The position numbers were made by a program, and so were the translations under genes. The notes below the pieces were generated by a model. That model had not been told where the DNA came from and did no database searches. It saw only the letters and a list, made by a program, of their open reading frames with translations. Source: Flavihumibacter petaseus NBRC 106054 (GTDB taxonomy: Bacteria; Bacteroidota; Bacteroidia; Chitinophagales; Chitinophagaceae). Taken from it: a stretch of DNA of 64,000 nt. Shown here piece by piece: positions 16,264-31,418 of the stretch. The stretch covers positions 62,001-126,000 of the forward strand of contig NZ_BBWV01000001.1 of the NCBI RefSeq assembly GCF_000974785.1, in the 5' to 3' direction. Every line of letters starts with the position of its first letter. The first letter of the stretch is position 1.

Positions 16264-16992
16264 ATGAAAACTTATGTGATAGGGGATATCCATGGCGCTT
16301 TGAAAGCACTGGAAGAATTGATTGACAGGATCAGTCCGGCCGCAGAAGACAGGCTCATATTTTTGGGTGACCTGGTGGATGGCTGGCCGGATTCCGCGGA
16401 AGTTGTGGCTTACTGTATTGCCCTCCAGGCCAGGCAGCCCTGTATATTTATCAAGGGAAATCACGATTCCTGGTGTGAAGGATGGCTCCAGGGTGCACAT
16501 ACCGGAGACGATTGGTTGTCACACGGTGGTGATGCCAGCATTCGCAGCTATGCCAAAGTGCGCGAAAAAGACCGCAAGAACCACCTGTATTTCCTCAACC
16601 ATATGATGCCTTATTTTGTGGACGAAGAAAACCGGTTATATATCCATGCAGGATACACCAGTCGCAATGGCCCGTCAAAAGAGACCTATGTCAGCAATTT
16701 TTATTGGGACCGCTCCCTATGGGAAATGGCGGCTTGCCTGGACAAAAACATTCCCGTTGACTCCCCATACTACCCGAAACGCCTGACCCATTTCAGGGAG
16801 ATCTTCGTCGGACACACCCCCACGCTGAACTACGGTATTACCGTTCCCATGAATGGTGGCAATGTGTGGAATGTGGATACCGGTGGTGCGTTCCAGGGCA
16901 GATTATCTGCATTGGAAGCCACCACCAAGGAGGTCATTCAGAGCAGCCCTGTGCAATCTTTGTATCCTGGTATTCAGGGACGGCTTAAATAG
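16264..16992 (+). CDS. Metallophosphoesterase (Ser/Thr phosphatase-like)
   Basis: A 242-residue calcineurin-type phosphoesterase with a two-metal active site. The motifs GDIHG (residues 7-11), GDLVDGW (about 36-42) and KGNHDSW (about 64-70), then a C-terminal HAGY and VGHTPT, are all present. This is the diadenosine-tetraphosphatase / PrpA-like subgroup of cytoplasmic phosphatases. It sits beside the Ser/Thr-kinase operon on the opposite strand, so an involvement in phosphoprotein control is possible but not shown. Confidence 0.88.
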   Translation: MKTYVIGDIHGALKALEELIDRISPAAEDRLIFLGDLVDGWPDSAEVVAYCIALQARQPCIFIKGNHDSWCEGWLQGAHTGDDWLSHGGDASIRSYAKVREKDRKNHLYFLNHMMPYFVDEENRLYIHAGYTSRNGPSKETYVSNFYWDRSLWEMAACLDKNIPVDSPYYPKRLTHFREIFVGHTPTLNYGITVPMNGGNVWNVDTGGAFQGRLSALEATTKEVIQSSPVQSLYPGIQGRLK

Positions 16993-17001
16993 CGTTGCTG
17001 A

Positions 17002-17787
17002 TCAGGGTTCGAGAAACACAAGGATGGCTTCACCTCCCAAAGCAATCTGATCGCCATCGCGCAATTCATGCGGTACGCCGGCGATATTCAGCTGTCGCAC
17101 TTTGTCGTCCTGCGTATAAACCTTCAGCTTATTGCCGCTTTCCGGTAACCCTCCCTTGTCGGGATACAAAAGGAATTTCTTGAACCGCGGGTCAAAACAG
17201 ATCATGGCATGATTGCGGCTTACCTGCAGATTCCCCCTGGCTTTTTCACTGTCGAAACCCGGTTCATCTGCAGCAACGAAAACAATATCGTTTGGATGTA
17301 CTTTACCCGACGAAAGCCGCGGTTCGCGACTCCTGCCGATATAGTATTTCAATTGCCTTGAGGGATCAAGCGGATATTCCGTCTGCTCGGTTTGTCCCAC
17401 CAATGTTCTGATTACAGCTTTGCCACCCGGCTGTCCCCAGGCCTGATTCGGCCGCACAATATCAAGCCCGAACTGGCCGTCTGATATAATATTTTCCGGA
17501 AAGGCCTCTTCAGTCACCTGCACTTCAAAAAACCATCCGGCAGACAGGTGGATATAATGATTGTGCAGATGCCGCTGCAGAATATCCTGCTGAAAATGCC
17601 CGGGCCGGTCGAGGTACAACGCTACCTGCACCAGCGACGCTGCCTGCATATCTTCGCAGCGGATATAAAGACGCAGACCATCCACTACAGCAGATTTCTC
17701 ATCTACATAAGGCTGCAGTGATTTCAGGATAAATCGCAGCACAGCATCGCGGTAGCCGGCGGCGGCGGGGATGACAGTTGATCTCAT
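17002..17787 (-). CDS. FHA-domain protein, last gene of the kinase/cell-wall operon
   Basis: A 261-residue cytoplasmic protein with a C-terminal forkhead-associated domain (about residues 147-258) that binds phosphothreonine. The domain keeps GRS (151-153), SRNHA (190-194) and DGDQIALGG (244-252), the canonical contact motifs. The N-terminal ~110 residues are a separate mixed alpha/beta domain, starting with a helix (YRDAVLRFILKSLQPYVDE), of no family I recognise. The stretch between the two core motifs carries an unusually long loop (residues 157-187). It lies 9 bp downstream of the SEDS-PBP gene and likely docks a phosphorylated member of the same operon. Confidence 0.85.
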   Translation of the reverse strand: MRSTVIPAAAGYRDAVLRFILKSLQPYVDEKSAVVDGLRLYIRCEDMQAASLVQVALYLDRPGHFQQDILQRHLHNHYIHLSAGWFFEVQVTEEAFPENIISDGQFGLDIVRPNQAWGQPGGKAVIRTLVGQTEQTEYPLDPSRQLKYYIGRSREPRLSSGKVHPNDIVFVAADEPGFDSEKARGNLQVSRNHAMICFDPRFKKFLLYPDKGGLPESGNKLKVYTQDDKVRQLNIAGVPHELRDGDQIALGGEAILVFLEP

Positions 17788-17796
17788 GACAAATGA

Positions 17797-20700
17797 TTAA
17801 TAGGATTCCACATAATTTCTTTTCAGTAATATCTGTGCAACAGTATTGCCCAGCACCACAGCATTGGCGGAACTCAGCCCTTCTTCTATTCGGATGCAGG
17901 TTACTGTTGCGGATGGCTTGCCCGGAACAGGTGCGAAAAACACATACCAGCCGTCAGCAGTCTTTTCACTTTTGACAATACGTTCCGGCGTGCCGGTTTT
18001 ACCTGCCACTCGAACGCTTTTGATCTTCGGCCTGCCGGGAGGATTGGATTGTTCAATCATGAAATTCCTGATCAGCCTCGCATAACTGCTATCCCTGGCA
18101 AGCGGTGCGGCAGGAACTTTGTCGGGTTGACGGCCACTGATTTCCGACAGGTACCGGGATGTCTGCATGCTTCCGTCAAGTGCAATGGCGCCGGCCATCC
18201 TCGCCATGGAAACCGGCGTGGCGGTCAAAGTTCCCTGCCCCCATGCGATACCGGAGAAATCACTCAGGTAGCGTTTTTTGCGCCCGATATTAGCCGGATT
18301 GTTGAATAGCTTCCGGTCATGGTTAAGCGCAGTCCGGTGCCAGTTGTCGAGTGTTTCGTGTTTCCTTTCCGGATCGAGTGCAGAGGTATAGTCAAATCCG
18401 CCGGTCTGGTTGATGCGCATACCGGTAGAAAGATAGAGGCTGGCCATTTCATCTTCAAGGTCGTGTTCATTGGCCATGCGGATAAAAAAGATGTTACTCG
18501 AATGAATGATAGCTTCCCGCATATCTACAAAGGGTACCTGGGGAACAAAAGGCTCCTGTTCTTTTGCATTGTCCCGGAAGATTTCCGAACGGGAGATATC
18601 CCTGTATTTTTCGGCAGCAGCGGCAGTTCCCATTTTATTCAGAGCGGCCATTGCAGTCAGTATTTTCACAGTAGATCCCGGTGCCGTCGCATAAGTCATG
18701 CCGAGATCCCTTTCCGTTACGGGAAAATCAAGCTGCCTTCTTTCCCTATCCGGCAGTCCAAGCAGTTCCGGGTGTTTCAGATCCGGCAGGGGATGCACCG
18801 CACTGGCGAGAAGTTCTCCTGATGCAGCATCAAGCACCACCACAGCTATTCGCTTGCCGGTAAAGGCAGAGCGTTGCAGGGAATCTTCGATTTCCTTCTG
18901 CAGTGCTGCATCCACAGTTAACCTTACATCACGGGGAGATTGAAGGATCTCCCGGATGGCATTATTGGAAGAATCTAATCCGTTCCGGAGAGATGGGATC
19001 AGGGCGGAATAATCATAACGGACCAGCTCAACCGATTTTTCCACGGGGCGGGTGAACCGGTCAGGCCGGTACGCCATGGCCAGTTGTTCCTGTTTTACCG
19101 GGTGTGTTTCAAACCCGCGCAATGCGCTGAGATGCCGGGCTTCGGCAAAATAGCCGTTCTGCTGGGCCCAGAAAAGGCGGGTGTTATAATCTCCTGTCCA
19201 GAAAAATAGATTTTCACCGAAAGGATACAAACGTCTTAGCCGGCGATGTTGAAGCGCCTGCAGCTGCAGTCCATCAACACCCGCGGCTACAAGGCTGTCA
19301 CGTTGTTGCCTGATCGCTGATTTCTGGCTGGTGGCCAGCAGCAGTCCATTCCTGTCCGTGATGTTGCCGGCTGCCAGAAACGCGGCAAGTTTGTCAATCC
19401 TGGGATTATAACTATAAATCGGTACCCCGTTCCTGTTTACGACGCGACTTTGCTGAACAAGGTACTGGTCTCTGTCTGAGATCTGAACCATAAATAATTT
19501 CCCGAGGATCACAACAATCCCCGTCATGATCCCTACAACAGCAGCTACGATCACGGTGTCATATCTCGCACTGATATGCTCCTGTTGTTTGCTGGTACCT
19601 GATCTTGCTGAAATGCCCGCGATCACGCCGAGTGCGCAACAATTCACAATCAGTGAGATCTTTCCATAACTGAGAAATGGTACCGCGAGACCGGTAAGGG
19701 GCAACAGTCCTGTTGAACCGCAACCCATCAGCAATACCTGGATGCCTGTCGCAATAGCAATCCCTGATCCAAGGTAGAAACTGAAGGGCTGTCCCGAACG
19801 CCGCGACAACAGCAGTATCCTGTACAACAATATCCCGAGCAGCAGGAATACCAGCAGCAGTCCTGCCCATCCCATTTCTTCACCGATACCAGGCAGGATC
19901 ATATCCGTGTGTGCAGCGGGCAGTGTATTCGGAAATCCTTTACCCAGCCCCTGGCCCTTCCATCCGCCGGAACTTAATGTCCAGTAGGCATGGGCCAGGT
20001 GGTCTCCACCGTAAACATCATTGTTCCAGGGATTCAGCCACATTGATTTTCTTTCTGCGAGCCTGGATCCGATGCCAGGCAACTGGTCCCCGAATACAAA
20101 TGCCGCCATCACTACCAAAATCAGCACCGGCGCCTCTGCCAGTACGGCGAAGGAACCATACCATTGCGAAGATTTTGCTGATCCGTTGAATGTCAGCAGC
20201 AGCAGGCTGAACACAAAAGCTATCGCGGTACCCATCCATGCCGGCAGGAAATACAGTAATCCGCCATACACGACTGCAGCCAGCAAAGTATAGGGAAGGT
20301 TCCCCCTCGCGATGCTGAGAAATACCAGGAAACTGAAACAGACAACAAGCGCCGGGCCCATGTCACCCATCAGCAGGTAAAGCGCCAGCAACATGGCTAT
20401 GCCGGCCATCATGAAAAACCCCAGGATAAGTCGATTACGGCTATCCGAAATATGCCTGAGGTGATCTTCATTAGCGGCAAAAAACCCCGCCATAAACAGG
20501 ATCAGTAAATATTTGGTGATTTCACTGGGCTGGAACAAAATTCCTGCCAGCCGCAGGTTAACTTTTACACCGCTGCCTTCAGGCCCGGTTCCGAATAGCA
20601 GGGTAATAACGGCCAGCAGCAACGCAGCAACGAGCCATGTATATCCTTTCAGTCCGAAGATCTCCCGCCGTTTGTAATTAAACAAACCATCATACCACCA

Positions 20701-21789
20701 TCGCGTATACAATTTTCCCGGATTGCTGCCGGCCAGCAGGGCAAATCCCAGCAGCCCCGCCAGCAATCCCTGCAGGCTTTGCATGGCCAATAGTGAATCT
20801 GTCAATGGCTGCTGGATACAAAGCAACATCAGTATGGCCAGCCCGGTAAGTAACATCAGCACCGGCAGGATCAGGGGATCTGTTTCAATACGCCGGATGG
20901 AGAGATATGCCTGTACCACCAGGAAACCGGCGATCAGTAACCCGGCGATGAGCCAGAATTGCCGGCGGAAACTATCCGGCGAACGCACCAGCAGCACATT
21001 GTCTTCTTTTAGTTGCCCGTAGGCCAAAGCGCCGATCAGCCGCAACCGGTGCGGTTGCCCGGTGAAGGTGAAGGAACGGTCTCCCCCGAGGGAAGCCGTC
21101 CCCTGCCTTCCGCCAAATGCAAAACCGGGTTTTAAAGGAAGCACGCTGTACCCGCTATCGGGGTACAGGCCGGCAAAACTGAATTTGCCATCTGTATCCG
21201 TCCGTACATAAAATTTATTTTCTTCCTCCTCCTGCTCGCCTGCGCGATGTTCCTGTAATGATACGAGTACACCTGCTGAAGCCAGACCATTGATCAGCAC
21301 GGTGCCGGAGATTTTACCGTTTCCCTTCCCTGCAGTAATGACTGATGCCAATGATCTCCCTCCCTTTCGCTCCTGCACATAAAGTGCAGAATCAAATCCT
21401 TGTGTCTGCCTGGCTGCGGCTAGCCTGTCGTTCCAGTCTGTACCGCCATAACTACTCTTCCACGCCAGTGGTGCGGCAATGAACCACGACTGCTTATTCA
21501 ATTCACCCAGGTTCGCCGGTACACCATTCACAACCAGCTTTGCACTCAGGGAATCCGCGATCAGCTTTACATCGGCAGCATCTGTGCAATAACTGCCATT
21601 GTCCAGTATACGTTGCAACTGTGTTTTGCTGACACCGGGCTGAAGCACCAGCGCATTGTTACTTTGCAGATCAAGTGCTGCCTTATCCAAACGTGGCGAT
21701 AATACTGTATACAGGCGCAGGAACAGGCCCAATACAACCATTGCGGTTATGCCCAGCAGCAACCAGGATTTCTTGTTTTTATCGGACAC
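17797..21789 (-). CDS. SEDS (RodA/FtsW) glycosyltransferase fused to class B penicillin-binding protein
   Basis: A continuous 1330-residue protein combining the two enzymes that polymerise and cross-link peptidoglycan. Order: one N-terminal helix (about 9-29); an outer segment with a carboxypeptidase-regulatory-like domain (about 158-245, GKISGTVLINGLASAGVLVSL); a multi-helix SEDS core (about 278-728) with the catalytic loop LPAAHTDM and putative catalytic Asp629; a helix at about 745-763; then a transpeptidase with Ser1039-x2-Lys1042 (GSTVK), Ser1097-Ser-Asn1099 and Lys1264-Thr-Gly. All key residues are present, so both activities are plausible. The start is GTG 21789, overlapping the kinase gene by 11 bp. 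SEDS and PBP are normally separate partner proteins. Confidence 0.93.
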   Translation of the reverse strand: MSDKNKKSWLLLGITAMVVLGLFLRLYTVLSPRLDKAALDLQSNNALVLQPGVSKTQLQRILDNGSYCTDAADVKLIADSLSAKLVVNGVPANLGELNKQSWFIAAPLAWKSSYGGTDWNDRLAAARQTQGFDSALYVQERKGGRSLASVITAGKGNGKISGTVLINGLASAGVLVSLQEHRAGEQEEEENKFYVRTDTDGKFSFAGLYPDSGYSVLPLKPGFAFGGRQGTASLGGDRSFTFTGQPHRLRLIGALAYGQLKEDNVLLVRSPDSFRRQFWLIAGLLIAGFLVVQAYLSIRRIETDPLILPVLMLLTGLAILMLLCIQQPLTDSLLAMQSLQGLLAGLLGFALLAGSNPGKLYTRWWYDGLFNYKRREIFGLKGYTWLVAALLLAVITLLFGTGPEGSGVKVNLRLAGILFQPSEITKYLLILFMAGFFAANEDHLRHISDSRNRLILGFFMMAGIAMLLALYLLMGDMGPALVVCFSFLVFLSIARGNLPYTLLAAVVYGGLLYFLPAWMGTAIAFVFSLLLLTFNGSAKSSQWYGSFAVLAEAPVLILVVMAAFVFGDQLPGIGSRLAERKSMWLNPWNNDVYGGDHLAHAYWTLSSGGWKGQGLGKGFPNTLPAAHTDMILPGIGEEMGWAGLLLVFLLLGILLYRILLLSRRSGQPFSFYLGSGIAIATGIQVLLMGCGSTGLLPLTGLAVPFLSYGKISLIVNCCALGVIAGISARSGTSKQQEHISARYDTVIVAAVVGIMTGIVVILGKLFMVQISDRDQYLVQQSRVVNRNGVPIYSYNPRIDKLAAFLAAGNITDRNGLLLATSQKSAIRQQRDSLVAAGVDGLQLQALQHRRLRRLYPFGENLFFWTGDYNTRLFWAQQNGYFAEARHLSALRGFETHPVKQEQLAMAYRPDRFTRPVEKSVELVRYDYSALIPSLRNGLDSSNNAIREILQSPRDVRLTVDAALQKEIEDSLQRSAFTGKRIAVVVLDAASGELLASAVHPLPDLKHPELLGLPDRERRQLDFPVTERDLGMTYATAPGSTVKILTAMAALNKMGTAAAAEKYRDISRSEIFRDNAKEQEPFVPQVPFVDMREAIIHSSNIFFIRMANEHDLEDEMASLYLSTGMRINQTGGFDYTSALDPERKHETLDNWHRTALNHDRKLFNNPANIGRKKRYLSDFSGIAWGQGTLTATPVSMARMAGAIALDGSMQTSRYLSEISGRQPDKVPAAPLARDSSYARLIRNFMIEQSNPPGRPKIKSVRVAGKTGTPERIVKSEKTADGWYVFFAPVPGKPSATVTCIRIEEGLSSANAVVLGNTVAQILLKRNYVESY

Positions 21790-23524
21790 CTCTCAGAATA
21801 AATTGGTCAAATGCCACTTGCTGATTGCCGTCAACCCGCAGACCGAATCCATTTCCGAACGCCCCCTCAAAAGGAAGCGTAATCTCCTTCACATCATTGA
21901 TGAAGAAGGAAAGAAAGGAACCCTGTTTGGAAACTGACAGCATATTCATGGCATTCTCCGGATGAATATTGTAGGTTCTTGTCCAATCTACCAGCGCCCT
22001 GATATCATCTTTCTGATGCGCTTCGATTTTGTAATAACCATCGGCCGAAATGTAGAAAACATAATATGCTTCCTTTTCCGGATCCGACAGGTAGTTCAAC
22101 CCGAATCCATCAGGCTCATTGCCTGACCGCCGGTTCATGTTTACGGCTACACTCCAGTTTTTGTTAAGATCGATGTCGAAATAGCGGGTAGATTGATAAG
22201 TATAGTTGCTGTCATATCCCTTGATTACGTATTTGCCATTTTCGTATGCGAATTCTTTCTGATCGTCCTTTTCCCGGATCCATCCATTGCCGGGAGAACT
22301 GAAATCGTCAATAAAAAACTGGTCTTTTACAGGATGGATGGGATATCGGACCTGACGGGCATTATGGTTTACAGGAACGATGGATTTTGTATCATTATTT
22401 TGTGCAGAATCCCTGTCGCGGGTACTATTAACAAATCTTTCAGTAACTGGAAATTTCTTCAGAAAACTTCCCCATACAAAATAGGCTCCCAGCGCGAGCG
22501 ACATCACCAGCAACAACACGAAAAATGGAAAGAAAGCAGACCGGTGCCGGGAAGGCATCAACAACTGCACCGTTCCTTTTACCGCAGAAAATGTTGGCAG
22601 GATGGTTTCGTAACCATAACGGTTGATGCGCTGCGGTGCCGCCATGGTCTGCCTGGTTACTGCTGGAGCCGGTGCCTGAGGCGCATCGGCCATTTCCTGC
22701 CGCGCTGCCTGGATCATCAGTTTCAGCTGACCGGAATCAGTGAGCCTTTCTGTTGCACGCTTGGCCAATAAACCCTGAATTATTTTTTTCAGCGTCGGCG
22801 GAAACCCGGGAGGCAACTGAAACATATCCACGGGATGACTGATTACCTGGTTGATATGCAATAACAGGTTGCCTTCCTCATATTCAAACGGCACACTGCC
22901 AGTTGCACATTCATATAATACAACCCCCATTGAATAAAAATCGGTTGCGGCATGCACTGCCCTGGAATCTGTGAACTGTTCCGGTGATGCATATTCGTAA
23001 GTAAGCATCGATGATCCGGTAACGGTATTGGATTGCTCCCGTAATTTTGCGATACCGAAATCCGTCAGCAGGTATTGCAATTCGCCTGACGGCAGCCGGC
23101 GATACATGATATTTTCCGGTTTGATATCGCGGTGCACCACATCACGCTGATGAATAGCATCCAGCGCAAGCGACAACTGCTCTGCCAGCCGGAGTATCTC
23201 AGCAACAGGCAATACGCCTGCCGCGCGGAGATGCTTACGCAGGTCTCCCCCTTCGATCAGTTCCATCACCACATATGGCAGGTCGGCGTCAAGGTGAACA
23301 TCGATAATCTTGACGATGTGCGGATGCTGGATGGCAATCATGATCTCAGATTCCTGCTGGAATCTCCGCAGGGTATCCGGGTCAGTATTAAAAGCAAAAT
23401 GTTTGATCGCCCGCAGCTGACCACTATCCCGGTGCCGCACCTTCAGTACCCGCGCGTTTCCCCTTCCGAGCTCGCCGATGATCTCGTACTGGGGAAAATA
23501 CTGGGTAAAAGAAGTGGTTTGCAT
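21779..23524 (-). CDS. Membrane Ser/Thr protein kinase with extracytoplasmic jelly-roll-like domain
   Basis: A 581-residue PknB-like kinase. The catalytic domain spans about 13-275: glycine loop GELGRGNARV (17-26), Lys41, HRDIKPEN with Asp133, DFG Asp155, and an activation segment ending YASPEQ (about 178-183) with Thr167/Thr169/Ser171-172 available for phosphorylation. A proline/alanine linker leads to one transmembrane helix (about 330-350). The outer part (about 403-580) is a beta-rich ConA/LamG-like domain with FFIDDFSSPGNGW and GFGLRVDG, not PASTA repeats. One base separates it from the phosphatase gene and it overlaps the SEDS-PBP gene by 11 bp. Confidence 0.93.
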   Translation of the reverse strand: MQTTSFTQYFPQYEIIGELGRGNARVLKVRHRDSGQLRAIKHFAFNTDPDTLRRFQQESEIMIAIQHPHIVKIIDVHLDADLPYVVMELIEGGDLRKHLRAAGVLPVAEILRLAEQLSLALDAIHQRDVVHRDIKPENIMYRRLPSGELQYLLTDFGIAKLREQSNTVTGSSMLTYEYASPEQFTDSRAVHAATDFYSMGVVLYECATGSVPFEYEEGNLLLHINQVISHPVDMFQLPPGFPPTLKKIIQGLLAKRATERLTDSGQLKLMIQAARQEMADAPQAPAPAVTRQTMAAPQRINRYGYETILPTFSAVKGTVQLLMPSRHRSAFFPFFVLLLVMSLALGAYFVWGSFLKKFPVTERFVNSTRDRDSAQNNDTKSIVPVNHNARQVRYPIHPVKDQFFIDDFSSPGNGWIREKDDQKEFAYENGKYVIKGYDSNYTYQSTRYFDIDLNKNWSVAVNMNRRSGNEPDGFGLNYLSDPEKEAYYVFYISADGYYKIEAHQKDDIRALVDWTRTYNIHPENAMNMLSVSKQGSFLSFFINDVKEITLPFEGAFGNGFGLRVDGNQQVAFDQFILRGVR

Positions 23525-23525
23525 G

Positions 23526-24851
23526 TCAGCGCTTATGGGAAATGATTACCGGGTTTTTGACTGAATCAAATGCCGTATTGTTTAATCGCAGGTAAATATT
23601 CATCCTGCTGATGATTCCCGTATCGAATCCCCGCAGGGTCACGCGGTCAAACGTGAGTGTATCCGGTGCACTGTTGGCATCGCGGTTCAGATCAATAGCG
23701 GCGTGGCGGTTTTTACCCGGAGCCGGTATCAGCACCAGTTGCCCTGATGAAGCATCCCGCCGTTGTTGCCATTCTGCCCTGCTCAGCGCGTGTTCAATAA
23801 CCAGCGTATCGGTTGCAGGAACCGTTGCGGATACAGGCTGCCGTATACTGTCTTTCGGGATCGTAGTAATGGAATCTTTGCGTGGGGGTTGCGCTTGTTC
23901 ATGTCCGTTATGGAAATAAATCCACCCCGACGCCAGCAATAATACTGCCAATAAAGCAATCATAAACCAGACCTGCCGCGACGGGCGTTCTTTCGGACCG
24001 GTAGTTTCTACCGGCGCTGCCACCGAAGGGTTATTGGACGATGGGTGGTTACCAGCGCGGGACTGGGTCATTTTGTTTCCCGCAGGTCTTTTCGGCTTGC
24101 CGGCCGGATACCGCGCCATCACCACGGTAATATTATCATGCCCCCCTGCTTCATTGGCCTTACGGATCAGCTTCTCAACTTTTTTATCCAGGGCAATGGG
24201 TTGTTGCAGAATGGCTCTCAGTTCAAATGCTGACAACATATCGGAAAGTCCGTCGCTGCACAAAAGAATTTCATCGCCCGGTTGGAGCGTGATGGACCCG
24301 AAGTCAAGAAACCCGGGATCATCTACCCGGTGAACACTGGAACCGACTTCCCGGAGGATCATATGCCGGTGCGGATGTGACATCGCCTCCTGTTCCGTGA
24401 TTTCACCTGCATCCTCCTGCATCCCGACAAGGGAATGATCATGGGTGATCTTGTGCAGTTTGCTCCTGTTATTGTGATACAGCCTGGAATCACCTACATG
24501 CACATAATGGAGTTGACCTGACTGCAGGTCAAAAGCTGCCACGGTCAGCACACAACACATATCAGCATAGGCGGGTGTGGATTCACGGGCAGCGGTGATC
24601 TGATTATTGGCAAACACCACAGCCTCCCTGAGCATGGTCAGGACATCTCCTTTCGGCTCCTGCATGTATTGTTCAATGCTTTCCCGGGCGAGCAACGCAG
24701 CAACGGCGCCGCCGGCATATCCGCCTACACCGTCGATAGCGGCCAGCAACAAAGTTTCCGGTCCCCAGAGCGTCCGGCAGATAAAGGCGTCTTCATTCTC
24801 TTTACGGCGCATCCCGGTATGGGTGCTGCCGCTGAACAGCAGGTTAGGCAT
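23526..24851 (-). CDS. PP2C-family Ser/Thr phosphatase with membrane anchor
   Basis: A 441-residue Stp1/PstP-like phosphatase that should reverse the kinase's phosphorylation. The catalytic domain (about 1-250) shows the metal ligands Asp21 (RRKENED), Asp40-Gly (DGVGG), Asp200 (CSDGLSD) and Asp239 (GGHDNITVV), with VGDSRLY in between. A low-complexity linker is followed by a single transmembrane helix (about 294-313) and about 125 outer residues of unknown fold. The gene is 13 bp downstream of the FHA-like gene and 1 bp upstream of the kinase gene. Confidence 0.93.
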   Translation of the reverse strand: MPNLLFSGSTHTGMRRKENEDAFICRTLWGPETLLLAAIDGVGGYAGGAVAALLARESIEQYMQEPKGDVLTMLREAVVFANNQITAARESTPAYADMCCVLTVAAFDLQSGQLHYVHVGDSRLYHNNRSKLHKITHDHSLVGMQEDAGEITEQEAMSHPHRHMILREVGSSVHRVDDPGFLDFGSITLQPGDEILLCSDGLSDMLSAFELRAILQQPIALDKKVEKLIRKANEAGGHDNITVVMARYPAGKPKRPAGNKMTQSRAGNHPSSNNPSVAAPVETTGPKERPSRQVWFMIALLAVLLLASGWIYFHNGHEQAQPPRKDSITTIPKDSIRQPVSATVPATDTLVIEHALSRAEWQQRRDASSGQLVLIPAPGKNRHAAIDLNRDANSAPDTLTFDRVTLRGFDTGIISRMNIYLRLNNTAFDSVKNPVIISHKR

Positions 24852-24864
24852 AGTATGGCTGGCG

Positions 24865-25827
24865 TCAGGTGATCGCCGAAAAATGTAAGGTTACACTGGC
24901 ATTTAGCAACAATTGACTTTCATTGGCAAGTTCCACCCATTGTGGCTGCCCGGGATCACTGCGGGGCACGACCACTTCGTTCACCCTGGTCTCGAAGCGG
25001 CTGAAAGACGCGATCTGAAAACTACCGGTACTTTCGTTCAGTCGGATCCGTGCATGCGGGTCAGAAACAAAACCGGAGTCGATCAGCAGGTAATTGCTGT
25101 AAGCCTGGTTGCCAGGATCCTTACGGGCAATGACCATTTCCTTATCCTTCATGAGATAGATCCCATCTTCGTTTCTGTCGGCGAGGTAATAACTGATGCG
25201 TGCAATCCCCTGGTCCAGGTTTCTGTTATTTCGTGCAGCCGGCCCCGATGCCAGTTTGAGATCGGCACTATAACGCACACTGAAACTTCCGGTATCCACA
25301 AAATTCACCTGCTGTAAAAGGTCAAGGTTGATATCCATTTTTTCGTATACGTTAGTCCGCTTGCTTTTCATCGTGACCTTGGTCGTATTGCCGGCTGCAG
25401 GTGTGCTGGCCTCCCGGCCGCCTGTCAGCATCCCGATCACCTGGATATCATCCGGATGCATTTTCTCGCCGTTAAAAAACTCCCCTTCCCCAAAACGGAA
25501 ATGCCATTGCACGGAAACCGGACTGATCTCTTCGTATTGAGGCTTATACAGATTAAGTTTTTTGTAGAATCCTTTCACCGCTTCTTTTACAATTACAGGG
25601 AAGGAAGCAAGCCGCTCTGCATAACGGTCAGGATGAAGAATTATCACAAAATGCATATTGAACAGCAGGCTGCTGCCAACAGATTCCTTTTTACAACTCT
25701 TGTCAAAGCAGGCCAGCAACTCACCGAGAATGGCATTGTTATCCAGTTCCCTGGTAACGGTCGCCGGTGTTGCCGGCAGGATAAGCGTTTTCAATGCGCC
25801 AAAAAAATCCAGTGATTTTTTCTTCAT
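24865..25827 (-). CDS. FHA-like protein, first gene of the kinase/cell-wall operon
   Basis: A 320-residue cytoplasmic protein. The C-terminal ~115 residues read as a divergent FHA domain: VIARKDPGN in place of the GR loop, SDPHARIRL (255-263) in place of SxxH, and FSRFETRVNE for the T-N loop. The usual GRxxxC motif is missing, so phosphothreonine binding is uncertain. The N-terminal part (about 30-135: MHFVIILHPDRYAERL, VQWHFRFGEGEFF) has a helix-then-sheet layout reminiscent of the N-terminal domain of actinobacterial FhaA (DUF3662), an inference from layout only. It leads the operon; a weak -7-like TATTTTTA lies at 25848-25855. Confidence 0.7.
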   Translation of the reverse strand: MKKKSLDFFGALKTLILPATPATVTRELDNNAILGELLACFDKSCKKESVGSSLLFNMHFVIILHPDRYAERLASFPVIVKEAVKGFYKKLNLYKPQYEEISPVSVQWHFRFGEGEFFNGEKMHPDDIQVIGMLTGGREASTPAAGNTTKVTMKSKRTNVYEKMDINLDLLQQVNFVDTGSFSVRYSADLKLASGPAARNNRNLDQGIARISYYLADRNEDGIYLMKDKEMVIARKDPGNQAYSNYLLIDSGFVSDPHARIRLNESTGSFQIASFSRFETRVNEVVVPRSDPGQPQWVELANESQLLLNASVTLHFSAIT

Positions 25828-28162: not shown

Positions 28163-30325
28163 TCATGTTTCGAGTACCGACAAATAACTGGAAGCCTCCT
28201 GCAGGGCCTGATGAATTTTGCCGGACAACTGTGAAAAGACTGCCGCAAACTCCCGGTCATTCAGTTGCTGGTACTCAATGGCATCCAGGAAAGGATTCAA
28301 TTGCAGATTCAGCCCCATCACAGAAATACTGGTCTTCAACTGGTGAGCAACCTGTCTTGCTCTTTTCACATCTCCCGTTTTCCAGGAAGCCTCCAGCTCG
28401 GTCAGTTCCTGCGGAACCAGTTCAAGGAACTGCCGGCTGACTTCCGCTTCATATTCCCTGTCGCCGGCACTTACGGAATGCATGTACCGGAGATCAATAA
28501 CCGAAAAATGATTGATGCCGCCGAACTCGCGGATCGTTTCCAGTAATTCTTCTTCGAGGATCGGCTTCGACAGGTAACCGTTCATCCCTGCCGCCAGGCA
28601 TTTTTCTTTTTCGCCGGCGAACACATGCGCCGTCATGGCAATCACCGGCAATTCCCTACCCCATAGCTTGCGTATGGCAGCAACGGTATCATAGCCGTCC
28701 ATACCGGGCAACTGGATATCCAGTAATACGAGATCACAAGACCTTTCCCCCAGCACCCTGATGGCAGATTCACCATCGGCAACACACTCCACCCGGATCT
28801 GCCATTGCTCCAGCATCCGGGTCAGCAATGTCCTGTTCAGCTGATTGTCTTCAACCACCAGTACACGAAGATGGCTGAGATCAGGCAGGGGCTGATCGCC
28901 GGAAGGCAATGGTTGAAAAGCGTTGGATGCTATTGACGCCGGTGCGGGAACGACCAGATACGGCAACACCACACTGAAGCAGCTTCCCGCCCCCCATTCA
29001 CTTTCCACGGATACCCTTCCTTTTTGTAACCGCACCAGTTCCTGGACGATTGACAGTCCAAGGCCGGTTCCTCCCCTTGCTCCCACCGACGCCCCTACCT
29101 GGCCGAAACGTTCGAAAATATCGTCAATATCTTCCCGGCGTATCCCGATTCCGGAATCCTTCACATCAAACCGGAGGCAAAATCCTTCGGGGGCCGACCA
29201 GTCAGGCGTAACGGTTAGACTGATGGTGCCCCTGTCGGTAAATTTGAATGCGTTTCCCAGAAGATTGATCAGCACCTGGCTGAGCCTGGCAGGATCACCC
29301 AATAGTTTTTCAGGTACTGCCGGGGTGACGTCGACGAGAAAATCGATGGATTTTTCATGCGCTTTCTCCCTGAATATGGATTCCAGGTCAGCCAGGAGCT
29401 CCCGCGGTTTGAACACTATTTTTTCTATCCGCATCATGCCTGCTTCGATCTTGGAGAGGTCGAGCACGTCGTTGATAATGGTCAGCAGGTTAGCCGCAGC
29501 CTTGTCAATGGCCTGAACATATTCACGGCTGACGGCATCAGCGGGCTGCTTTTGCAAAAGTTGTGAGAAGCCCAGGATCGCATTCAGCGGCGTCCTGATC
29601 TCATGACTCATATTGGCCAGGAATTTTTCCTTTACGGCCACAGCCTGCTTTAATTCTTCCTGCGATGTATTCAGCTGGTTCAACAAATCCTGCTGCCGCC
29701 GGAGCCGGCTCAGTATGAACCAGAACAGGCCGATGGAACTGGCAATGATGAGGGCAAACAGCGCGACGCCCCAGCGTAATGCGCGACGCCCGCTTCTGTC
29801 GGCTGAAGCAATGATCTGGATGACCAGCTGTTGCCGGCTCGTTTCAATTTTGTGGCGGATATTATGGATACTGTCCATCAGTTGCCGCCGCTGTCCCGAA
29901 TCTGCCAGCCGGGCAGCGGCTTGCGGACCTTTATGATAGAAACTGTCGAGTATCCGGTTGTTGAGAAAGATGGCCTGTTCGATCATGGACTGCAATTCGT
30001 CAACATAAATCTCTGTGTGCGGATCGTCGCGGATCAGCTGAAGAGTCTCCATTCCCGAACGCACGGCAGAAAGGTCGACCGCCACAGCATCCATGGATGG
30101 CACCTGCCTGGCGGCAAGCGCAGTATCGATCTTCCGTTCCAGCAGATTCAGGTGATGTTCCACACGCTTCAATTCGTTGGCGACATTGAATTCGGCTACC
30201 ATCTTCTCGTTACCGCGAACAAGGTCAAATATGTTGGATGAAGAATTGTATTGAATGAAAACCAGGGCAAGAATTCCCGCGACAAAAGCAGCCAGAACGG
30301 CATATACAAAACGCTTTCCGATCAT
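28163..30325 (-). CDS. Hybrid sensor histidine kinase with receiver and Hpt domains
   Basis: A 720-residue membrane phosphorelay kinase. Helix 1 (about 6-24) and helix 2 (about 185-205) enclose a helical periplasmic sensor of about 160 residues. Then come HisKA with His241 (NMSHEIRTPLNAI), the ATPase domain with the N box (LLGNAFKF, about 355-362) and G boxes (DSGIGI, GGTGLGLS), a receiver with Asp536 (LLDIQLPGMDG) and Lys587, and a C-terminal Hpt domain with His661 (HQLKTS). ATG 30325 is preferred to TTG 30346. With a complete internal relay it needs an external final receiver; the LytTR regulator 0.4 kb away is one candidate but lacks proof. Confidence 0.93.
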   Translation of the reverse strand: MIGKRFVYAVLAAFVAGILALVFIQYNSSSNIFDLVRGNEKMVAEFNVANELKRVEHHLNLLERKIDTALAARQVPSMDAVAVDLSAVRSGMETLQLIRDDPHTEIYVDELQSMIEQAIFLNNRILDSFYHKGPQAAARLADSGQRRQLMDSIHNIRHKIETSRQQLVIQIIASADRSGRRALRWGVALFALIIASSIGLFWFILSRLRRQQDLLNQLNTSQEELKQAVAVKEKFLANMSHEIRTPLNAILGFSQLLQKQPADAVSREYVQAIDKAAANLLTIINDVLDLSKIEAGMMRIEKIVFKPRELLADLESIFREKAHEKSIDFLVDVTPAVPEKLLGDPARLSQVLINLLGNAFKFTDRGTISLTVTPDWSAPEGFCLRFDVKDSGIGIRREDIDDIFERFGQVGASVGARGGTGLGLSIVQELVRLQKGRVSVESEWGAGSCFSVVLPYLVVPAPASIASNAFQPLPSGDQPLPDLSHLRVLVVEDNQLNRTLLTRMLEQWQIRVECVADGESAIRVLGERSCDLVLLDIQLPGMDGYDTVAAIRKLWGRELPVIAMTAHVFAGEKEKCLAAGMNGYLSKPILEEELLETIREFGGINHFSVIDLRYMHSVSAGDREYEAEVSRQFLELVPQELTELEASWKTGDVKRARQVAHQLKTSISVMGLNLQLNPFLDAIEYQQLNDREFAAVFSQLSGKIHQALQEASSYLSVLET

Positions 30326-30347
30326 GCGGTGATGTTCAGGCTTCAAT

Positions 30348-30722: not shown

Positions 30723-31418
30723 CTAGAGGATCCTTAACCGGCGGTTCAACTGGGCCCGGTAAGCATCTGCAACAGGAACAGACGTCTGGTTGATCACCAG
30801 CGCGCCATCGCGGATGGCATCGATCTTGCCCACCTGTACAACATACGATCGGTGCACCCTCAGGAACAGGCTGGCAGGCAACCGCTCTTCTACCGCTTTC
30901 AGTGTATTATGAATGATGTGGTATTTCTGCGCGGTATGAAGCTTAACAAAATCGCCCATAGCTTCCGCGTATAAAATTTCGGCAACTTCCAGCCGCTTTA
31001 CGGTATTTGCTTCCCTGATGAACAGAAAGCCCTCCGGTGCAGTACTGCTCTCGAGCTGACTGGCCTGCTGCCATTCACGGGCTTTTTCTATTGCCTGGCG
31101 GAAACGCAGCGGCGTAACCGGCTTCACCAGGTAATCCACTACATTAAGGTCAAAGGCCTCCGCGGCATATTCCTTTTTTGAGGTGGTAAAGATGATCAAC
31201 GGGCGTTTCTCACCCAGGTTGCGGACCAGATCGATCCCACTGAGCCCCGGCATCTCAATGTCCAGTAACAAAAGATCAATTCCACCTTTTAACAGCAATG
31301 AAGCAGCTTCCGTGGCATCACTGGCTTCACCGGCGTAAGCCAGGTCGGGAACCTGGCTTACCAATTGCCGCATCGTGGTGCGGGCAATTTTGTTATCATC
31401 TATGACCAGACAATTCAC
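30723..31418 (-). CDS. LytTR-family response regulator
   Basis: A 231-residue AlgR/AgrA-like regulator. The receiver has the acidic pair in VIDDNK, phospho-acceptor Asp53 (LLLDIEMPG) and Lys in YLVKPVTP. The LytTR DNA-binding domain (about residues 130-228) contains EILYAEAMGDFVKLHT, HNTLKAVEERLP and FLRVHRSYVV. The start is GTG 31418, which overlaps the upstream TGA in a GTGA junction, so its translation is probably tied to that of the secreted protein gene. No LytS-type kinase is adjacent. Confidence 0.92.
   Translation of the reverse strand: MNCLVIDDNKIARTTMRQLVSQVPDLAYAGEASDATEAASLLLKGGIDLLLLDIEMPGLSGIDLVRNLGEKRPLIIFTTSKKEYAAEAFDLNVVDYLVKPVTPLRFRQAIEKAREWQQASQLESSTAPEGFLFIREANTVKRLEVAEILYAEAMGDFVKLHTAQKYHIIHNTLKAVEERLPASLFLRVHRSYVVQVGKIDAIRDGALVINQTSVPVADAYRAQLNRRLRIL

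Follow-up and report, generated by a model that had tools for sequence, protein, structure and literature searches.

Our analysis covered a 64,000-nucleotide stretch of the Flavihumibacter petaseus NBRC 106054 genome (the window), in which an ORF check confirmed five minus-strand reading frames at positions 17002–25827. Along the operon they encode an FHA-like protein, a PP2C phosphatase, a Ser/Thr kinase, a fusion of a SEDS protein with a class B PBP, and an FHA protein, with the kinase gene placed between those of the phosphatase and the fusion. The tight packing on one strand that the sequence-only reading had described is borne out, with all frames recovered in place and intergenic gaps, counted from the FHA-like gene, of 13, 1, -11 and 9 bp. 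This neighbourhood of FHA, PP2C, SEDS, class B PBP and Ser/Thr kinase genes on a single strand is also one of the features that mark the actinobacterial PknB/PstP wall cluster.

A promoter scan returned 10 predictions versus 9.6 in shuffled sequences, and a terminator scan 14 versus 9.4 (sd 3.6). The convergent phosphoesterase gene at 16264–16992, which among 92 scanned loci turned up only in a same-genus genome (L018, L033), was not taken as a part of the operon.

Domains and conserved residues of the five proteins

The fusion gene (17797–21789, minus strand) starts with GTG and encodes 1330 aa that carry Pfam matches to FTSW_RODA_SPOVE (1.5e-44) and Transpeptidase (2.1e-26) in a single frame. 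A transmembrane (TM) segment is followed by an ectodomain with a CarboxypepD_reg-like beta sandwich (about 155–247), the SEDS part (about 300–733), and the PBP TM segment with the transpeptidase (about 982–1299). The structure predicted for residues 1–800 reached a pTM of 0.82, and in this model the SEDS part matched FtsW/RodA structure entries with Z of 25.4–28.1 (best 8bh1, Z 28.1), while fold searches with the beta sandwich gave Z up to 9.5. Asp629 of the SEDS part, which we take to be its catalytic Asp, aligns with the FtsW Asp and is kept in 91/91 homologues. In the transpeptidase, Ser1039 and Lys1042 of the SxxK motif and Asn1099 are likewise kept in 91/91, Lys1264 of KTG in 90/91 (one gap), and Ser1097 of SxN is invariant in 12 aligned rows, where the numbers run one lower. 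In 91 of 92 loci the fusion is encoded by a frame longer than 1000 aa (94 fusion frames); in this count L102 is cut by its contig and L045 and L071 are each split into two frames. Fold and catalytic residues are common to the fusion and the RodA-PBP2 and FtsW-FtsI pairs, from which it differs in being one chain, in its link to a kinase and in its extra ectodomain. Judged by its domains and residues, the fusion is predicted both to polymerise and to cross-link the cell wall.

The Hanks-type kinase (21779–23524, minus strand; 581 aa) has one TM segment (332–350), a Pfam Pkinase match (7.5e-47), and HRD, DFG and the catalytic Lys all in place. A Pfam search of its ectodomain matched neither PASTA nor any other family, and the NCBIfam PASTA-kinase model covers the kinase domain only (195.7 bits versus a cut-off of 450). 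The PP2C phosphatase (23526–24851, minus strand; 441 aa) matches Pfam PP2C_2 (1.6e-11) and, with 3.1e-57 yet under that model's cut-off, NCBIfam Stp1_PP2C_phos. Its metal-site residues Asp40 and Asp121 are kept in 87/88 (one gap) and 88/88 homologues, respectively, and by eye its C-terminus holds a hydrophobic stretch resembling a TM segment, with a short tail after it. In the genome, it is the sole PF13672 match.

In PADLOC, 36 kinase models recognise the kinase, with mad6 scoring best (9.3e-61), and the PP2C query also retrieved PP2C genes of type VI secretion loci, as might be expected if the five genes were a signalling module for defence or type VI secretion. We consider this highly improbable: the domains of the fusion are those of a wall enzyme, no Tss gene is among the annotated neighbours of a Spirosoma plasmid copy, and the kinase alone of the five proteins matches, the other four giving no PADLOC match and a full PADLOC defence gene set not being found among them.

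The 261-aa FHA protein (17002–17787, minus strand) is the sole PF00498 FHA match in the genome. Its FHA domain (9.5e-5) is preceded by an N-terminal domain, and the phospho-threonine residues Gly151, Arg152, Ser190, Arg191 and His193 are invariant in 90/90 homologues. For the 320-aa FHA-like protein (24865–25827, minus strand), the Pfam FHA match is below cut-off (E 0.021). Its AlphaFold model (mean pLDDT 85.4) combines an N-terminal alpha/beta domain and a middle beta region with a clear FHA fold at the C-terminus (residues 206–319; Z 15.2 against 3umz, rmsd 1.9 over 102 residues). This adaptor may not be a standard phospho-threonine reader: of 84 homologues, 62 carry Gly in place of the pocket Arg, which the window copy retains. 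The proposal that both FHA proteins serve as readers is weakened for this protein.

FhaA_N (PF12401) was not detected in either FHA protein. None of 45 FHA-protein homologues had it among the Pfam matches listed, with the FhaA of L124 matching as a control (7.4e-38), and when four actinobacterial FhaA were compared by hhalign against 600 control fragments, the best ranks of 12/604 (320-aa family) and 4/604 (261-aa family) were not significant. A Rhodococcus FHA protein did not match the FHA families significantly either, its hhalign result being equalled by 258/600 controls. In a whole-length hhalign comparison, the first half of the 320-aa family aligned with the FhaA N-terminal domain (P 0.008, probability 4.9%), which we regard as a lead only. 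The same holds for the order of helices and strands in the 320-aa model, which by eye is similar to that domain.

Conservation, distribution and gene order

All five gene types lie on the strand of the fusion in 72 of 80 named loci, which were fetched by the fusion alone as the best 80 of 532 matches; this sample spans at least 16 genera, is uninformative on carriers outside Bacteroidota and is partly non-independent (judged by their equal lengths, the contigs of L018 and L033 are one and the same, as are those of L020 and L038; L072 and L080 also share a contig). Because the fusion was the sole bait, the five-gene set is a conserved module, beyond chance. Eleven other genomes of the family contain the operon's first gene, and all 11 have the remaining genes as well. 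The sequence-only reading had named missing conservation in relatives as evidence against it, and in both samples the neighbourhood proved to be conserved. Of eight incomplete loci, six (L053, L062, L090, L096, L102, L107) are truncated because their contig ends within the set or close to it. Spirosoma endophyticum (L039) is a real exception, as no member of the set other than fusion and FHA lies within about 10 kb. No kinase was found in the sequenced stretches of L039 and L050; the latter starts inside the first gene, so that a kinase placed ahead of it would be missed.

Flank clustering over the 92 loci yielded no conserved sixth gene, with no family in more than 22/92 and the 22/92 family scattered in position. 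A small same-strand membrane-protein family was seen in 11/92 loci.

The kinase, phosphatase and FHA proteins might also act on other targets in the cell, with the fusion simply co-transcribed. As the sole PF00069 match in the genome, the kinase possibly has many targets, and the finding of no kinase in the L039 and L050 stretches would also be in line with this idea. However, the set stays together in most of the best 80 of 532 loci, a frequency that no flanking family approaches, and we regard an action purely on other targets as rather unlikely.

The module is accessory. It was found in 12/117 family genomes, the fusion frame in 3/13 genus genomes, and a phylum scan counted 10 carriers in 395 after 4 of 14 matches, in which the alignment was confined to the FHA end of the model, had been dropped as non-system. 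One copy, in Spirosoma, is plasmid-borne. Absence from most relatives suggests that the operon may be dispensable. A kinase scored above cut-off in 3/15 genus genomes, the same three that hold the fusion frame among 13. Family genomes with a kinase numbered 39, of which 27 yielded no match to the operon's first gene; such kinases hence exist also without the operon. Kinases of the Bacteroidota subgroups are unlike each other (HRD type, HGD type and others), which points to exchange or strong divergence of the kinase.

In 44 of the 72 complete loci the kinase comes last, as in annotated actinobacterial clusters, and these loci match the order FHA-PP2C-SEDS-PBP-kinase except that an FHA gene is inserted ahead of the kinase. 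The kinase is not last in 28/72, standing solely in front in 11/72 and in the window-type position in 17/72, the subgroup of the window. The gene order in the window looks derived. Described beforehand as rearranged and fused, the set is indeed fused in one frame, and the rearranged order belongs to the subgroup of the window.

Descent of the fusion and comparison with known clusters

In the SEDS tree, which is unrooted, has long branches and draws on a sample from which lineages such as cyanobacteria and Deinococcus are absent, the fusions, actinobacterial RodA (those of PknB clusters included) and the FHA-linked SEDS of Monoglobus fall on one side of a branch with a support of 100/99 (100/98 with core columns, 100/97 with extra outgroups). 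The fusion SEDS is set apart from FtsW and RodA of the same genome. Six actinobacterial RodA were included, and those of Embleya and Streptomyces lie outside a full kinase cluster; a short frame, Act_Arthro, was removed ahead of the SEDS trees. AU tests rejected a placement of the fusion SEDS with Bacteroidota FtsW (p-AU 0.0109) and with Bacteroidota RodA (2.1e-13). On these trees, the SEDS half looks related to RodA of the actinobacterial cluster by common descent, beyond analogy. The PBP half did not group with actinobacterial PbpA, although such a grouping was not rejected either (p-AU 0.469), and branching of the PP2C and kinase trees left the origin of either protein unsettled.

Alternatively, the likeness could be functional only, if a copy of Bacteroidota FtsW or RodA first became fused with a PBP and later acquired kinase, phosphatase and FHA genes of unrelated origin as neighbours. 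Such a convergent assembly would agree with PBP, PP2C and kinase trees that show no common descent, with PASTA and FhaA_N not being found, and with a Rhodococcus plasmid that also has a SEDS-PBP fusion by PP2C and FHA, as fusion may recur. Yet the SEDS trees and AU tests oppose an origin from Bacteroidota FtsW or RodA, and the prevalent kinase-last order is actinobacterial-like. We hence judge convergence unlikely. The operon had been called an equivalent of the actinobacterial kinase-division cluster; the likeness to the annotated clusters of L124 and L183 is real and, in the SEDS half, looks like shared ancestry; neither PASTA nor FhaA_N was detected. The division part of the name has to be given up. 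Elsewhere the genome has two separate SEDS genes, both with a gene for a transpeptidase no more than about 5 kb away, and the operon comes in addition to this separate FtsW and RodA rather than being the division cluster of the cell.

Phospho-control of wall synthesis is known from bacteria related to the agent of tuberculosis. The actinobacterial cluster fhaA-fhaB-pstP-rodA-pbpA-pknA-pknB (L124 Tsukamurella, L183 Actinomyces oris, also L123 and L173) unites the same five gene types in one operon, its order equals that of the kinase-last Bacteroidota relatives but for the one inserted FHA, and its RodA shares the lineage of the fusion's SEDS half. In contrast, rodA and pbpA are separate in the actinobacterial cluster, whereas the window operon joins the SEDS and PBP parts in one frame with an extra periplasmic domain, has its kinase between PP2C and fusion, gave no PASTA or FhaA_N match and is accessory. 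In mycobacteria, pstP shares a transcript with rodA and pbpA, and PbpA is a substrate of the purified PstP phosphatase (PMC6554272).

As in the window, a fused SEDS-PBP adjoins PP2C and FHA in a plasmid operon of Rhodococcus fascians (L201; PP2C-FHA-SEDS-PBP fusion), and its SEDS joins actinobacterial RodA (98/92) on a long branch. This fusion comprises 914 aa with a SEDS match already from residue 127, which leaves no large N-terminal periplasmic domain, and unlike in the window operon, no kinase is annotated within the 7.7 kb fetched. An AU test did not separate one fusion event from two (p-AU 0.227). Natural SEDS-PBP fusions are also mentioned in PMC10449877. Clostridial Monoglobus (L172) has an operon of FHA, SEDS and PBP, with the strain's FtsW and RodA genes separate on other records; here SEDS and PBP are unfused, and the gene table, which is incomplete, annotates no kinase or PP2C in 21 kb.

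A putative phospho-regulated wall synthase

We favour, as somewhat probable, a reading in which the operon is a phospho-regulated auxiliary wall synthase, namely a variant of the actinobacterial scheme that was moved between distant bacteria and fused. It would be such a variant because its SEDS half and the RodA encoded in the actinobacterial PknB cluster appear to share one lineage. What we infer here is enzyme activity, the targets of phosphorylation, sensing, gating and the direction of transfer. The SEDS half would polymerise lipid II and the PBP half cross-link the product, in addition to what the FtsW/FtsI and RodA/PBP2 pairs regularly do for the cell. Envelope sensing could fall to the membrane-bound kinase and to the periplasmic domain of the fusion, and the kinase would phosphorylate itself and its partners, possibly including the fusion. 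The 261-aa FHA protein would read phospho-threonine, perhaps on the fusion, and gate or place the synthase, with PP2C resetting the switch and the 320-aa protein acting mainly as a scaffold.

To our knowledge, kinase control of wall synthesis has been studied chiefly in actinobacteria and other Gram-positive bacteria. If our reading is true, Gram-negative bacteria may also use an actinobacterial-type control scheme, as an addition they can do without, and it would account for a third SEDS enzyme in a cell that already has FtsW and RodA. This compact Gram-negative version would offer a few-part system for the action of kinase, FHA and phosphatase on a RodA-PbpA-type synthase. Among the matches listed in a search of open-access full texts, with preprints and most subscription papers outside its scope, no title or abstract describes the operon.

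In a wider reading, to which we give slightly less than even credence, the actinobacterial cluster RodA, the clostridial FHA-SEDS-PBP operon, the Rhodococcus plasmid fusion and the Bacteroidota operon would represent a third SEDS lineage beyond FtsW/SpoVE and RodA proper, tied to phospho-signalling across phyla. In Bacteroidota it would be passed on as a self-contained cassette, chromosomal or plasmid-borne, that supplies a wall synthase in one chain at once with its kinase, phosphatase and reader and gives a Gram-negative cell an extra, phospho-switched wall machine.

Gene order and conservation of the operon

In the window, five minus-strand open reading frames follow one another with gaps of 13, 1, -11 and 9 bases. 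They encode a 320-aa FHA-like protein (25827-24865; under the Pfam FHA cut-off, but FHA fold in the model), a PP2C phosphatase (24851-23526; Pfam PP2C), a Ser/Thr kinase (23524-21779; Pfam Pkinase), a SEDS-PBP fusion (21789-17797; Pfam FTSW_RODA_SPOVE and Transpeptidase in a single frame) and a 261-aa FHA protein (17787-17002; Pfam FHA). Our re-check of the frames reproduced exactly the genes, strand and spacing described in the sequence-only reading. A calcineurin-like phosphoesterase gene (Pfam; 16264-16992, plus strand) is convergent with the operon, with 9 bases between both stops, and also lies beside it in the same-genus locus L018. By eye, a 727-aa frame (28163-30346, minus strand) resembles a hybrid histidine kinase bearing a receiver domain, and two genes away lies an apparent LytTR-type response regulator (30723-31418).

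The operon is real, and its neighbourhood is conserved in relatives. With the 320-aa protein as query, 12 of 117 Chitinophagaceae genomes were found to contain it, and in all 11 besides the window the PP2C, fusion, second FHA and kinase genes adjoin the first gene (in L020 the second FHA gene is cut by the end of the stretch). A profile of this protein matched 14 of 395 Bacteroidota genomes, 10 of them at full length. When named genomes were queried with the fusion only, at least 592 stretches fitted the patterns and at least 532 encoded a relative. Judged by title, the best 80 of these 532 are all from Bacteroidota, with 16 genera named, including Niastella, Spirosoma, Larkinella, Pedobacter, Mucilaginibacter and Segetibacter. 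In 72 of the 80, genes of all five types lie on the same strand as the fusion. Signalling genes and fusion thus show a lasting linkage. Six of the eight incomplete loci are cut off by the end of their contig, close to or within the gene set; the others are L050, an ambiguous case, and L039. The latter, from Spirosoma endophyticum, is a true exception in which a span of about 10 kb holds just the fusion and the second FHA gene, and its signalling genes may be lost or located elsewhere.

Pedobacter panaciterrae has two operon copies on a single contig, separated by about 124 kb (L072 and L080), with first genes of 317 and 180 aa and otherwise equal gene lengths, reflecting either a recent duplication or an assembly artefact. 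Furthermore, a family of small same-strand proteins (151-179 aa, N-terminal hydrophobic stretch) occurs near the operon in 11 of 92 loci, directly before it in six and after it in five (L065:6924-7418, L066:6955-7422, L079:18748-19263 and 8 other loci), possibly as an optional extra operon part.

An accessory set apart from the housekeeping synthases

The operon is accessory and separate from the housekeeping FtsW/RodA synthase pairs. Outside it, the F. petaseus genome holds two more SEDS genes (413 and 458 aa), both of which have a transpeptidase gene no more than about 5 kb away; from their place in the SEDS tree, these are the regular FtsW and RodA systems. The long fusion frame occurs in 3 of 13 Flavihumibacter genomes, and a kinase exceeds the cut-off in the same three out of 15 genomes; two of these 15 lie outside the fusion count. 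Operon kinase, phosphatase and 261-aa FHA protein are the sole genomic matches to PF00069, PF13672 and PF00498, respectively, the 320-aa protein being too weak for the last search. Across the family, a kinase was found at 1e-15 in 39 of 117 genomes, including all 12 with the operon. Kinases hence also occur apart from it, in the 27 genomes where the first-protein query found no operon. The entire operon, including two kinases, is also present on a 137-kb Spirosoma oryzicola plasmid (L125:6423-16979), the only one of 72,556 plasmid records with a site covering 80% of the fusion. Three records of the plasmid collection that hold wall genes, NZ_LN868939.1, NZ_LT559118.1 and NZ_CP108785.1, measure 2.7, 11.9 and 5.7 million bases, and at least some look like chromosomes despite their label.

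Relation to the actinobacterial kinase-wall cluster

We regard the operon as a new form of the kinase-wall cluster scheme known from actinobacteria. In an unrooted, long-branched tree of 37 SEDS sequences, 11 fusions, six actinobacterial RodA (four from full kinase clusters) and an FHA-linked SEDS of the clostridial Monoglobus formed one side of a branch with support 100/99. This branch received 100/98 on 332 core columns and persisted at 100/97 with six added sequences, including an FtsW from actinobacteria, a fusion from a Rhodococcus plasmid, and the FtsW and RodA of Monoglobus itself. Placing the fusions with Bacteroidota FtsW was rejected (p-AU 0.0169 in the first and 0.0109 in the extended set), as was placing them with Bacteroidota RodA (2.3e-5 and 2.1e-13). 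Without Monoglobus, fusions and actinobacterial RodA pair without support (p-AU 0.134 for keeping them together). The SEDS half thus likely shares descent with the RodA lineage of the actinobacterial cluster.

Monoglobus encodes its kinase-lineage SEDS in an FHA-SEDS-PBP operon (L172:9473-12458). The strain has FtsW and RodA as separate genes on further records (L197, L198), and these fall outside this lineage. On a Rhodococcus fascians plasmid, PP2C, FHA and a 914-aa SEDS-PBP fusion are consecutive (L201:1010-5705), with no annotated kinase within the part examined. This fusion joins actinobacterial RodA (98/92) on a long branch; the Bacteroidota and Rhodococcus fusions may stem from one event or from two (p-AU 0.227). 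According to excerpts of PMC10449877, which cites the Rhodococcus RHA1 genome, SEDS-PBP fusions occur in nature.

The sequence-only reading had likened the operon, as rearranged and fused, to the actinobacterial cluster; for the SEDS half, SEDS trees and AU tests make common descent likely, whereas trees do not settle the origin of PBP, PP2C and kinase. The fusion's PBP half stands alone on a long branch, its grouping with PbpA being neither supported nor rejected (p-AU 0.469), and neither PP2C nor kinase trees inform on origin. Operon kinases form several groups: an HRD type (window, Niastella, Spirosoma), an HGD type distinct from the window's kinase (Pedobacter, Mucilaginibacter, Segetibacter, e.g. 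L047:14784-16331), in which HGD replaces HRD and Asp, Lys, Asn and DFG are retained, and those of L027 and Niabella.

Among actinobacteria, the annotated Tsukamurella cluster (L124) comprises DUF3662-FHA, FHA, SEDS, PBP and two kinases, with PstP located by sequence; all seven genes are annotated in Actinomyces oris (L183), and the same seven were found by sequence in Nocardia (L123) and Nonomuraea (L173). In L124 and L183 there is a 4-base overlap between rodA and pbpA, so little would be needed for fusion. The kinase lies behind the second FHA gene (FHA-PP2C-[SEDS-PBP]-FHA-kinase) in 44 of the 72 complete Bacteroidota loci, 19 of which have a second kinase in front; it lies between PP2C and fusion, as in the window, in 17 and solely in front in 11. 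The fusion tree has kinase-last loci on either side, with L027 and Niabella on one and Pedobacter and Segetibacter on the other, so this order is probably the older one.

Active sites and a putative phospho-switch

Judged by their residues, synthase, kinase, phosphatase and FHA sites are intact. SEDS Asp629 and transpeptidase Ser1039 and Lys1042 are invariant in 91 long fusion frames, the PP2C metal-site Asp is present, and the window kinase has HRD and DFG motifs. Gly151, Arg152, Ser190, Arg191 and His193 of the 261-aa FHA protein are conserved in all 90 homologues, which makes it a likely phospho-Thr reader. Homologues of the 320-aa protein show Arg to Gly in 62 of 84 and Ser to Asn in 53 of 84 (the window retains both Arg and Ser), so that this protein may mainly be a scaffold; in its predicted model (mean pLDDT 85.4), residues 206-319 adopt an FHA fold (Z 15.2 to 3umz).

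The predicted model of fusion residues 1-800 (pTM 0.82) shows a SEDS fold, with Z 28.1 to FtsW of 8bh1 over 335 residues (rmsd 2.9). Unlike FtsW and RodA, the fusion has an N-terminal segment flanked by two TM helices, bearing a predicted beta sandwich (about 155-247) that resembles carboxypeptidase regulatory and pilin domains (Z up to 9.5) and that, from topology, would be periplasmic. A Pfam search of the kinase ectodomain gave no match and no PASTA domain.

Excerpts of PMC6554272 report for mycobacteria that pstP shares a transcript with rodA and pbpA and that purified PstP acts on PbpA, and excerpts of PMC11898655 place FhaA in wall synthesis. From this actinobacterial precedent we infer that kinase, FHA protein and PP2C could control the fusion. 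The kinase might sense the envelope and phosphorylate, besides itself, either the synthase or an adaptor; the FHA protein would read the mark, and PP2C would reset the switch. The window kinase loop contains a T-V-T stretch that, at a guess, could be a docking site.
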